This document shows positions 4,786 through 39,208 of a DNA stretch of 64,000 nt, piece by piece. Where the stretch lies: positions 1 through 64,000 of the forward strand of contig JAJFFD010000045.1 of the NCBI GenBank assembly GCA_021776805.1, written 5' to 3'. The notes under the pieces were generated by a model that saw only the letters and a list, made by a program, of their open reading frames with translations, had not been told where the DNA came from and ran no database searches. Position numbers and translations under genes: made by a program. Source of the stretch: Planctomycetota bacterium (GTDB lineage: Bacteria > Planctomycetota > UBA1135 > UBA2386). Each line of letters begins with the position of its first letter. The stretch's first letter is position 1.

Positions 4786-5481
4786 ATGACACGGGGGAAA
4801 TACACCCAGCTGTTAGTTGCCCTCGCAGTCTTGGGGGCGATGTACTCGATCATGGGGTATCCAACAGGCCGGGTGATCTGGAGTATCTCCTTCTGGGTGG
4901 TCCTGCTCGTTTCCCTCCAAGCCTGCGCCAGCTCCCGACAGAAGCTGTTCGCCTCGGCCCTCTTCCTGGCTTCCCTGGGAATCGGTATCCCAGGGCTGGT
5001 GTTCCTACAGCAGAAGGGGGCGCAGTTCTACGTGGATCACACCTGGATGGTCGCCTCGACCTCAGTGTTGCACCTGGTCTTCCTTGCACTGGTCGGGTGG
5101 CTCATCCTCAAGGACGTGTTCACCGGCTTTTCCGTAGACGTGCAGCGCATTGCCGGTGCCGCCTGCTTCTACGTCTTGCTGGGCCTGGCCGGAGCTTGGG
5201 CCTATCAGCTCATCGCCTGCTTCGGCGAGACGGCTGCCTTTCGCGAGCATGACCTCGACATGCACATCCAGGACGACAGCCTGCCCACCTTCCTGTACTT
5301 CTCCTTCGTTACCCTCACCACCTTGGGCTACGGGGACATCCAACCGGTGAATCCAATCGCCCGCCTCTGTGCCGGTGCGCAAGCCTTGGTCGGTCAACTC
5401 TATCTGACCATCTTGGTGGCGCGCCTGGTCGGGCTGCACATTTCCCAGCGCGGACTCGAGCGGGACGAGGCCCAGGAGTAG
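4786..5481 (+). CDS. Six-helix potassium-type ion channel
   Basis: 231 residues. Four hydrophobic segments in residues 5-105 are followed by a two-helix pore module. The selectivity filter TLGYGD is at residues 179-184, preceded by the pore helix FVTLTT, which points to potassium selectivity. There is no recognisable voltage-sensor arginine ladder and no RCK/TrkA-N regulatory domain after the last helix; the protein ends about 20 residues beyond it. It belongs to the ion_trans_2 group. The start lies five bases after the DPP-IV-type peptidase stop, so the two are probably co-transcribed, though a functional link is not obvious. Confidence 0.85.
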   Translation: MTRGKYTQLLVALAVLGAMYSIMGYPTGRVIWSISFWVVLLVSLQACASSRQKLFASALFLASLGIGIPGLVFLQQKGAQFYVDHTWMVASTSVLHLVFLALVGWLILKDVFTGFSVDVQRIAGAACFYVLLGLAGAWAYQLIACFGETAAFREHDLDMHIQDDSLPTFLYFSFVTLTTLGYGDIQPVNPIARLCAGAQALVGQLYLTILVARLVGLHISQRGLERDEAQE

Positions 5482-5485
5482 GGGC

Positions 5486-5752
5486 CTAGAGCTTCAACCC
5501 CTCGTAGCAGCCTCGTCCGGGGCGGCAGTCGTCCACGTCGACGATCTGATCATCCGGGCCGATCTCCGTGCAGGTACGCAGGCACCAGTAGTAGCCATCC
5601 CCTGGGCGATCCCGATAGTCGTAGATCTTCTCATCCATCTGGTGGGTGAGGATCTGCTTCATGATCATGGCGGGGCAGAGATCCTTGGGAGTCAGGTCCC
5701 GGTGAGTAGGCAGCTCGGCATCTGTGTTCTTGTTGAGCTTTTTGGCGTTCAT
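5486..5752 (-). CDS. Small Cys-rich protein of the molybdenum hydroxylase operon
   Basis: 88 residues, no signal peptide, family not recognised. A GAGGTGAT ribosome site sits just before the ATG, and the start is four bases after the stop of the FAD subunit gene, so it is the last gene of that operon. Cysteines are C26, C57, C61, C76 and C82; the last four sit in an acidic, aromatic C-terminal half (WCLRTC, then DDCRPGRGC) and could bind a metal or iron-sulfur cluster. A role as electron acceptor, assembly factor or small subunit of the neighbouring enzyme is inference from position alone. No XdhC/MocA-type chaperone gene is seen here, so it might fill that place. Confidence 0.75.
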   Translation of the reverse strand: MNAKKLNKNTDAELPTHRDLTPKDLCPAMIMKQILTHQMDEKIYDYRDRPGDGYYWCLRTCTEIGPDDQIVDVDDCRPGRGCYEGLKL

Positions 5753-36537: not shown

Positions 36538-37308
36538 ATGTTTCGGCGCAAAGCAGAGAAGCAAGACGAAGCCGGCGAAGTGCCGAAGATCAACGAGGAC
36601 ATGATGGTCATCGTCGATCAGGCGGTGAACCCATTCCTGGTCCTCTTTCACGACCCGATCAGTTTCCGTGCAGAGCAGATCCGAGCTCTACGCAACCAAC
36701 TGATTGCGCTCAATTCCGATGGGGCCGCCAAGACGCTGGTGGTGACCTCGGCAATCAAAGGTGAAGGCAAGACCGTCACTGCGATCAACCTGGCTTTGGC
36801 CTTCGCAGAGCTGGATCGCCAGTCGGTGTTGCTTGTGGACGCGGACATGCGCCGGCCATCAGTGGAGAACTACCTCAATCTGAGCCCGCATGCTGGCCTC
36901 TCTGACCTCTTCCTCGATCGCGTCAGCTTCGACGACTCGATCCGGAGTTCAGGAACGCGCAACCTGTCCATCTTGGGGGCGGGAACGCGTATGGCGGCGC
37001 CCTCCGAGTTGCTCACCGGCAGCCGACTGGAGCAGCTCTTCGACCGTGCCAAGGAGCGCTTTCAGTACGTGGTCATCGATACCCCACCGGTGCTCCCCGC
37101 GACCGACGCCAGCGTCATCGCGTCGCGAGCGGATGGCACTCTCCTTACCGTGCGACTCGAGCACTCACAGAAGAAGCAGTCCAAGGACGCGATCCGATAC
37201 CTGCAGGATCTCGGAGCGAACATGCTCGGGACCTTTGTTACCGAGGTCCGAGGTGCCGATCCGGACTCTGATCCAACCTTCCGCTACGAGGCCCTCGAGG
37301 AACCCTAG
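36538..37308 (+). CDS. CpsD/BY-kinase-like P-loop ATPase (MinD/ParA superfamily) of the actin cassette
   Basis: 256 residues, cytoplasmic, with GGAAGGAA before the ATG. The fold is that of CpsD/CapB tyrosine kinases: the leader PISFRAEQIRALRNQL, Walker A SAIKGEGKTV (K78), Walker A' VLLVDADMRRP (D101, D103) and Walker B YVVIDTPPV (D181). BY-kinases usually end in a tyrosine cluster; only one tyrosine lies in the last 15 residues, and there is no membrane partner (Wzz-type) or polysaccharide gene nearby. It may therefore act as a ParA/MinD-like spatial switch rather than a kinase. It heads a three-gene run with a coiled-coil protein and a MamK-like actin, 11 and 23 bases apart. The function in this setting is inference. 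Confidence 0.82.
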   Translation: MFRRKAEKQDEAGEVPKINEDMMVIVDQAVNPFLVLFHDPISFRAEQIRALRNQLIALNSDGAAKTLVVTSAIKGEGKTVTAINLALAFAELDRQSVLLVDADMRRPSVENYLNLSPHAGLSDLFLDRVSFDDSIRSSGTRNLSILGAGTRMAAPSELLTGSRLEQLFDRAKERFQYVVIDTPPVLPATDASVIASRADGTLLTVRLEHSQKKQSKDAIRYLQDLGANMLGTFVTEVRGADPDSDPTFRYEALEEP

Positions 37309-37319
37309 CCTTGGGAAAG

Positions 37320-38096
37320 ATGACTCAGAGTCTGCAGGAGGCGGTGAGGAAGCTCGCCTTCAAGACCTCCATCGAGCAGCTGCAGAAGCGGGGCGTCAAG
37401 GACGTGAAGGTCCTGGGCCTGGATAGAATCGTCGCACTCATCGAGGAGGCGACCAACCGCAGCCTCAAGCACCGGCTGCTCGCCGGCGATCGCGCTGCCA
37501 TAGCGAATGCGACCAAGGAAGAGTTCTTGCGTCTGCTCAAGACCAATCAGGATCTGAAGCAATCTCGTGATGAGCTGCAGCAGGAGAAGGAGAGAGCAGT
37601 CCAGGATGCCGCTGCAGTCCGCAAGGAGATGGAAGCTCTCGCCGGCAAGTTGAAGATTCGCTTGGCCGCGGCGGGTGAAGAGGCTCGTGAACAGTTCGAT
37701 GACGAGGATGAGGAAGTCCGTCGACTGGTCGAGATGCTCTATCAGGACGCCCTGAAGTCAGGCGACCAGGGGGTATTCAAGGAGCGCATGTCCAAGCTCC
37801 TCTTCGGCATGCTCGAAGAAAAGCGGCGCGCCGCGATTGCGGCGACAGAGGCCGCCAAGGGCGAGGAAGTCAGCCAGCTACAGCGGCGTATCGCCAAGCT
37901 GAGCACGACTCTGGAGCAGACAGAATCAAAGCTATCCATGGTTTCTTCTCAGGGTTTCTATGACTCAGGCGTTGCCTCGGTCTACCGCGAGGTGCAGGGA
38001 CTGTCCCTGGATTCGCGCTTCTATGACCTGAAGAAGGAGTTGATGGCAGACATTTTCAAAGCAAACCTGCAGCTGCAGAAAGGACAGCGTGACTAG
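37320..38096 (+). CDS. Coiled-coil protein between CpsD-like ATPase and MamK-like actin
   Basis: 258 residues from ATG 37320 (TTG at 37311 in frame). Family not recognised. The N-terminal 60 residues may be globular (VKVLGLDRIVALIEEATNRS). Residues 65-115 and 165-215 have heptad-like Leu/Glu/Lys/Gln patterns, e.g. LQRRIAKLSTTLEQTESKL, with an acidic EEDEEV-like segment at about 120-135. No membrane helix or signal. The C-terminus (VASVYREVQGLSLDSRFYDLKK) is short and globular-looking. Its place suggests an adaptor linking the actin filament to the ATPase or to a cargo; this is inference. Confidence 0.75.
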   Translation: MTQSLQEAVRKLAFKTSIEQLQKRGVKDVKVLGLDRIVALIEEATNRSLKHRLLAGDRAAIANATKEEFLRLLKTNQDLKQSRDELQQEKERAVQDAAAVRKEMEALAGKLKIRLAAAGEEAREQFDDEDEEVRRLVEMLYQDALKSGDQGVFKERMSKLLFGMLEEKRRAAIAATEAAKGEEVSQLQRRIAKLSTTLEQTESKLSMVSSQGFYDSGVASVYREVQGLSLDSRFYDLKKELMADIFKANLQLQKGQRD

Positions 38097-38119
38097 GCAA
38101 CAAGTGCCAGGTGATTGTT

Positions 38120-39208
38120 ATGAGTGATAAGACCTCAACTTCAGGCAAGCAGAAGGCCTCTGGCGGCAAGGCCAGCGAAAAGGGCGTTCTCTATGTCGGT
38201 GTCGATCTCGGCACTTCGCGTACGGCGATTTCTGCCAGCAATGGTGTTCGCGAGTCCATGGACTCAGCCGTTGGTTACCCAAAGGACGTCGTCAGCCACA
38301 AGCTCCTCAAGAAGGATGTGCTCTACGGTCGTGAAGCGCTCGACAAGCGCCTGAGCCTCAAGCTCTTCAAGCCCTTGGAGAACGGCATCCTCAAGCATTG
38401 CAAGGACCCGAGCTCCAAGGATGCGAAGGACAACGTCAAGGCTGCCAAGGATCTCATTGCGCACGCCGTCAAGATGGCGAATGCTCGCTCTGATGAGCTT
38501 GTCTACGCGGTGATCGGTGTGCCGGCGCAGGCCTCCATCAACAACAAGGAAGCCATCGTCGAAGCCGCCCGGGCAGCCGTTGACTCGGTCATGCTCTGCT
38601 CCGAGCCCTTTGCCGTCGGCTATGGCTTGGACATGCTGGATGACGTGCTGGTGATCGACATCGGCGCGGGCACCACGGACCTATGCCGAATGCACGGCAC
38701 CATGCCTGAGGATTCGGACCAGATCACCCTGAACGTGGCTGGTGATGCAGTGGATCAGGAGCTCAGCAAACTGATCGGCGAGAGTTGCCCTGGCGCGCAA
38801 TTCACCATCCAGATGATCAAGGAGCTCAAGGAGCGGTACGCCTTCCTTGGCAGCGCTCTGGAGTCGGCTGAGGTGGTGCTGCCCGTCGCCGGTAAGCCAA
38901 CCGAATTCGAGGTGACCCAGCAGGTGCACGATGCCTGTGCGATCCTCGTGGATCCGATCGTCGAGGGCTTGAACAAACTGGTCAGCTCATTCGATCCGGA
39001 GTTCCAGCACAAACTACGCAACCGCGTTCTGCTCGCCGGTGGTGGTTCCCAGATCAAGGGTCTGGATACGGCCATCGAAGAAGCGATGAATCGGGACCTG
39101 GGCGGTGGCAAGGTCATCCGCATCGAAGAGCCTCTCTACGGTGGCGCCAATGGTGCGCTGAAGATCGCCCACGACATGCCAGAGGAGTACTGGGACAAGC
39201 TCAAGTAG
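38120..39208 (+). CDS. MamK-like bacterial actin
   Basis: 362 residues from ATG 38120, with AGGTGAT five bases upstream. The actin ATPase motifs are phosphate-1 VGVDLGTSRTA (27-36), connect-1 VIGVPAQAS, phosphate-2 VIDIGAGTTDLC (178-189) and adenosine LAGGGSQIKGL. It follows Magnetospirillum MamK far more closely than MreB: VGYPKDVV, AVIGVPAQAS..NK, CSEPFAVGYGLD, the C-terminal GGANGALKIAHDMPEEYW. The MamK residues E143 and D161, needed for ATP turnover and filament dynamics, correspond to E162 and D180 with the same spacing of 18. A Lys/Ser-rich tail of 22 residues precedes the actin core. No magnetosome (mamA, mamB, mamE, mamJ) genes are seen. It likely forms dynamic filaments of unknown cargo. 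Confidence 0.88.
   Translation: MSDKTSTSGKQKASGGKASEKGVLYVGVDLGTSRTAISASNGVRESMDSAVGYPKDVVSHKLLKKDVLYGREALDKRLSLKLFKPLENGILKHCKDPSSKDAKDNVKAAKDLIAHAVKMANARSDELVYAVIGVPAQASINNKEAIVEAARAAVDSVMLCSEPFAVGYGLDMLDDVLVIDIGAGTTDLCRMHGTMPEDSDQITLNVAGDAVDQELSKLIGESCPGAQFTIQMIKELKERYAFLGSALESAEVVLPVAGKPTEFEVTQQVHDACAILVDPIVEGLNKLVSSFDPEFQHKLRNRVLLAGGGSQIKGLDTAIEEAMNRDLGGGKVIRIEEPLYGGANGALKIAHDMPEEYWDKLK

Follow-up and report, generated by a model that had tools for sequence, protein, structure and literature searches.

Three collinear genes on the forward strand occupy positions 36538-37308, 37320-38096 and 38120-39208 in the open reading frame list of the window (the whole 64,000-nucleotide stretch of DNA analysed), which belongs to a 5.2 Mb assembly, 91% complete, of an uncultured planctomycete. 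The first gene encodes a CpsD/BY-kinase-like P-loop ATPase of 256 aa, recognised by family scan, motifs and kept neighbourhood. The second encodes a coiled-coil protein (258 aa from its ATG) that is picked up by our family profile and has no Pfam family; alignment and AlphaFold2 mark off an N-terminal helical domain (37320-37475), and conserved columns and AlphaFold2 a C-terminal module (37941-38090) that we propose as an actin-binding segment. The third encodes an actin (362 aa from its ATG) which family score, structure match, alignment and tree assign to the MamK family, presumably as a member of the saltatorellin type. The original prediction of three same-direction genes with gaps of 11 and 23 bases is borne out, given the ATG starts at 37320 and 38120 that these gaps presuppose. 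Alternative starts are a TTG at 37311, which would give a coiled-coil protein of 261 rather than 258 aa, and a GTG at 38111, which would give an actin of 365 rather than 362 aa. The ATG at 38120 is favoured for the actin because AGGTGA lies directly 5' of it; the coiled-coil ATG at 37320 has a weak GGGAAAG as its sole upstream signal.

Against the NCBIfam MamK model (NF040964) the actin scores 412.1 bits, narrowly passing the cut-off of 400, and it matches the MamK structures 5LJV, 5LJW and 5JYG (E 6e-79) across almost its full length. The motifs DLGTS, SEPF (containing E162), DIGAGTTD (containing D180) and AGGGS are intact. E162 and D180 (ATG numbering; E165 and D183 from the GTG) align with MamK E143 and D161 at the same 18-residue spacing, and the alignment agrees with the earlier reading of an actin that follows MamK throughout. 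Grouping within MreB or ParM, named beforehand as a point that would count against this reading, is not what we find: the protein lies in the MamK family, and it stays under the cut-offs of the MreB subfamily NF010539 (65.9 bits, cut-off 293) and of NCBIfam BeeR NF053558 (212.7 bits, cut-off 530). A true MreB is encoded separately in the same genome (G000:C85). The window actin is 67.8% identical to the actin of Planctomycetes bacterium Poly30, 40.5% to MamK of AMB-1, 32.4% to BeeR and 27.5% to its own genome's MreB. It thus shares with MamK of Magnetospirillum the actin fold, family-level similarity over the full length, the catalytic E and D and a score above the NF040964 cut-off, and differs from it in the modest identity and in genomic company, as no MamQ or MamA over cut-off was found in the 91% complete host assembly. 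The latter result agrees with the placement of the cassette outside any magnetosome cluster; a search of the genome for magnetochrome (PF18509) was silent, as were its controls.

Poly30 (CP036434), the strain of Saltatorellus ferox, encodes one MamK-family actin (420.8 bits) and a weaker MreB-like match. The tree joins the actins of the window and of Poly30 in a same-order clade (97/95) to which MamK does not belong; MamK of AMB-1 falls outside the actins of planctomycetes, on a long branch and with weak support. The deep rooting of this tree is not relied on, because MreB and a very divergent actin discussed below (the second actin of locus L093) have branch lengths of 10. An actin-like homolog of Saltatorellus species, 'saltatorellin', is described as possibly taking part in shape shifting (Wiegand et al. 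2019, bioRxiv 817700, as cited in PMC11032199); it would be a MamK-type actin from the same planctomycete order as ours. Since the Poly30 gene is the only MamK-family actin in its genome, we infer that it is the named saltatorellin. Its affinity to the window actin, together with that account, leads us to file the latter in the MamK family under the saltatorellin type, as a presumed ortholog of the Saltatorellus actin and not as a displaced magnetosome protein.

The actin is near-universal in its Planctomycetota order: the MamK model was matched in 61/61 genomes (the relatives and the host itself), with 51 of the 61 over cut-off, and 73 of 294 genomes of the phylum hold an actin over that cut-off. 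This distribution, with 68% identity to the Poly30 actin and 40.5% to AMB-1 MamK, therefore makes it an actin of a known kind; its partners appear to be undescribed. The original prediction of a MamK-like actin reused for another cargo was right about the family, but the protein is no isolated MamK; it is a lineage-wide planctomycete actin and, by inference, a saltatorellin ortholog.

The trio is conserved, so the scattering of its genes among related genomes that might have spoken against the original prediction is not observed; the three are kept together across genera and families, far beyond chance. Profile searches, on which all neighbourhood counts rest, place a coiled-coil relative directly 5' of the actin in 43/52 and 35/40 actin-anchored loci, two sets that partly overlap and are biased to high-scoring actins. 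Several actin copies have no coiled-coil relative upstream. Starting in reverse from 65 coiled-coil loci found independently of the actin, we see an actin directly 3' on the same strand in 51. For the 14 loci without an adjacent actin, 13 of the genomes hold a MamK-family actin over cut-off elsewhere, and the remaining one has just a short fragment. Across the 294 phylum genomes, 107 have both actin and coiled-coil relative, 9 have the actin and no detectable coiled-coil relative, 24 have the coiled-coil relative only and 154 have neither, counts that ignore shared ancestry, as does the Fisher's test made on them. Judged from match ranges, the 24 coiled-coil-only genomes appear mostly to hold paralogs that share the N-terminal domain.

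The coiled-coil protein matches no Pfam or NCBIfam family over cut-off. In family alignments, a helical domain at the N-terminus is followed by a long coil, and conservation is highest in the C-terminal segment. The AlphaFold2 model (mean pLDDT 76) predicts the coil to be helical. The N-terminal domain is modelled confidently, with pLDDT of about 91-93 at residues 11-50; nothing credible in the PDB matched this domain by sequence or fold. Scanning named genomes gave relatives in Planctomycetota or bacterial MAGs, of which a few carry a doubtful genus label, and in one finished genome, that of Poly30. The actin-upstream relatives at two loci of family f17 (L089 and L090) are much longer, at about 670 aa; therefore the coil varies in length while both ends are kept. 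Its position and co-occurrence make it very probable that the coiled-coil protein is a partner dedicated to the actin. This is in line with the filament side of the earlier suggestion of a filament-cargo link; nothing found points to a cargo organelle.

The C-terminal module consists of the motif GVASVYREVQGL followed by the helix KKELMADIFKANLQLQ, both made of invariant or near-invariant alignment columns. AlphaFold2 predicts the motif to be disordered (pLDDT <50 at residues 213-228) and places the helix at residues 235-256. A motif that is conserved yet predicted to be disordered often marks a segment that folds on its partner, and we regard it as a putative binding site. We considered the C-terminal helix (LMADIFKANLQLQ) as WH2-like and dropped this reading, since Pfam WH2 gave no match even at E 10. 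The module also occurs on its own, in short genes immediately 5' of the actin in Poly30 and in family f8 genomes. Poly30 further encodes a full-length coiled-coil gene unlinked to its actin and, about 5 kb downstream of the actin, a fusion of this module with a GGDEF (diguanylate cyclase-like) domain (L183 13816-14856). Thus, Poly30 and the window are alike in having a protein with this module immediately 5' of the actin, and differ in that the full-length coiled-coil gene and the ATPase lie elsewhere in Poly30, whereas the window holds one tight cluster of three. Fusions of GGDEF to the C-terminal module were also seen at three further loci (L126, L127 and L187).

The ATPase had been called CpsD-like, and indeed scores 132.6 bits against TIGR01007 (cut-off 108), which puts it in the BY-kinase/CpsD (polysaccharide tyrosine autokinase) group; its best matches are XrtA-associated tyrosine autokinase, EpsG and the Eps family. 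It has the Walker A GEGKT, Walker A' LLVDADMRRP and Walker B VVIDTPP motifs and the segment AEQIRALR, and Walker A, A', B and AEQxRxLR are kept among the trio ATPases, the last of these resembling the BY-kinase oligomerisation motif. The C-terminal Tyr cluster of BY-kinases is not conserved, with a single Tyr in the window ATPase and none to several in relatives. The trio ATPase is set apart from its paralogs: the runner-up in the same genome reaches only 47.6 bits. At two family f7 loci (L070 and L071), the P-loop GEGK of the trio ATPase is replaced by GEGL or GEGS, so that catalysis may have been lost there while the gene stayed in place. The linkage of the gene varies: it is on the same strand as the coiled-coil/actin pair in families f1, f2, f3, f4, f6 and f7 and divergent in others. 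Among the 65 coiled-coil loci, some of them incomplete, it is same-strand in 27 and divergent in 2, and the two overlapping actin-anchored sets have 4 and 5 loci with a divergent copy. In many lineages the gene maps to another part of the genome or none is found close to the actin, and the nearest homologue in Poly30 stands alone, unlinked to the actin. This variable linkage, the unconserved Tyr cluster and the loss of the P-loop Lys in f7 make it more plausible that the ATPase regulates or serves as a scaffold than that its catalysis is essential. The spatial switch of the original prediction, as it was stated, is not supported for an ATPase that is often divergent, distant or not near the pair, and that has lost its P-loop Lys in f7.

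The host genome carries a second actin/coiled-coil pair (G000:C213; L193 4859-6714). A paralog of the coiled-coil protein (4859-5593) is followed, 26 bases further on, by a 364-residue Volactin-family actin that scores 265 bits against Pfam Volactin (cut-off 35). In alignment, this volactin partner has the N-terminal domain of the trio's coiled-coil protein and a different C-terminus. Four loci of relatives (L194, L196, L199 and L200) each have a volactin, 55-81% identical, adjoining the same type of paralog, and the pairing was seen from coordinates in two more genomes (G217 and G229). Thus, two different actins each have their own upstream coiled-coil partner, with one end common and the other distinct. 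In passing the Pfam Volactin cut-off, the second actin resembles VolA of Haloferax volcanii (PMC10869688); unlike VolA, it is bacterial and follows a coiled-coil partner whose N-terminal domain is shared with the trio partner.

We think that these genes probably specify a saltatorellin-type actin with a dedicated coiled-coil adaptor and a regulatory ATPase, serving cell shape or internal organisation. From the genes, families, neighbourhoods, co-occurrence and domain architectures observed, we infer interactions, polymerisation and a cellular role along the following lines. The actin would be an ATP-dependent filament former of the MamK branch, and the C-terminal motif and helix of the coiled-coil protein would bind the actin filament or monomer. 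The long coil would make the adaptor an oligomer or a spacer, and the N-terminal domain may link the filament to a structure that the two actin systems have in common, for instance the membrane, the nucleoid or an anchor. The BY-kinase-like ATPase could set where or when the pair assembles, much as MinD/ParA-type switches do. The system would more likely serve the shape or internal organisation of the cell, the role proposed for Saltatorellus, than magnetosomes. Overall, we favour a reading in which each actin has its own modular coiled-coil adaptor and the ATPase acts as a regulator. An extension of it, which we offer tentatively and regard as somewhat doubtful, is that one adaptor family, with a common N-terminal domain and actin-specific C-termini, runs both the saltatorellin/MamK and the volactin actins in the same cell, that the GGDEF-fused module ties the first actin to c-di-GMP signalling, and that this is the regulatory apparatus behind planctomycete shape change.

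The trio could instead position a cargo, with filaments that align or segregate an organelle or particle, the coiled-coil protein as a MamJ-like linker and the ATPase as a ParA/MinD-like switch. The MamK family membership of the actin and the relation of the ATPase fold to MinD/ParA fit this, and the partner recalls, by description, the Mad20/23/25/26 coiled-coil proteins that occur with MamK and a second actin, Mad28, in Desulfovibrio magneticus, a deep-branching magnetotactic bacterium (PMC12748827). That network is organelle-associated, whereas the window system is not known to have an organelle; moreover, no conserved cargo gene adjoins the trio (by a crude ORF call), MamQ and MamA are not above cut-off in the genome, and the N-terminal domain is common to the volactin partner, which argues for a general anchor and against a cargo-specific link. 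We therefore consider cargo positioning unlikely.

Still less probable, in our judgement, is that the ATPase is an ordinary exopolysaccharide BY-kinase (CpsD/EpsG), the cassette tying envelope polysaccharide synthesis to an actin scaffold as an MreB-like shape or wall system. The top matches and the AEQxRxLR segment are what such a kinase would have, but the unconserved Tyr cluster, the lost P-loop Lys of f7 and the separation from paralogs are not, and no export genes are apparent by eye around the unlinked Poly30 ATPase. It would surprise us greatly if the neighbourhood were just a side effect of vertical descent where genomes rearrange slowly, the three genes being functionally unrelated. 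Part of the conservation does reflect descent, since the actin tree follows the lineage; yet the pair is kept between families where genes outside the trio are not (again by a crude ORF call), the ATPase flips orientation and remains adjacent, and the C-terminal module stays beside the actin even where the rest of the coiled-coil protein is gone.

Saltatorellus is a striking bacterial shapeshifter, and in the literature searched its actin is linked to that ability without known partner proteins. Should the coiled-coil family and the ATPase prove to be the partners, the cultured relative Poly30 would allow direct tests, as it carries the actin, the adjacent C-terminal-module protein, a full-length coiled-coil protein, the GGDEF-fused module and the ATPase. 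The volactin parallel would suggest a rule for the phylum, one adaptor family for several actins, with a bearing on the origin of complex bacterial actin cytoskeletons. We found no description of the partner family, its modular reuse or the volactin parallel in the literature searched, which lay mostly outside subscription papers and preprints.

We finally note some peculiar actin loci. (i) In one planctomycete genome (G083), two MamK-like actins are in tandem (L093 5631-9217), the second very divergent and 28.8% identical to the window actin. The idea that this is a magnetosome locus was set aside after the neighbouring predicted proteins were read by eye and no mam gene was recognised. (ii) BeeR of Verrucomicrobiota (8R2N; PMC11929497) is, like the window actin, a MamK-related actin of non-magnetotactic PVC bacteria, but at 32.4% identity, and with the window actin below the BeeR cut-off, the two branch apart. 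A planctomycete BeeR-like actin does exist, in a family f62 genome (G138, L097); it has no detectable coiled-coil partner upstream, and it groups with the BeeR of Opitutus (99/98).
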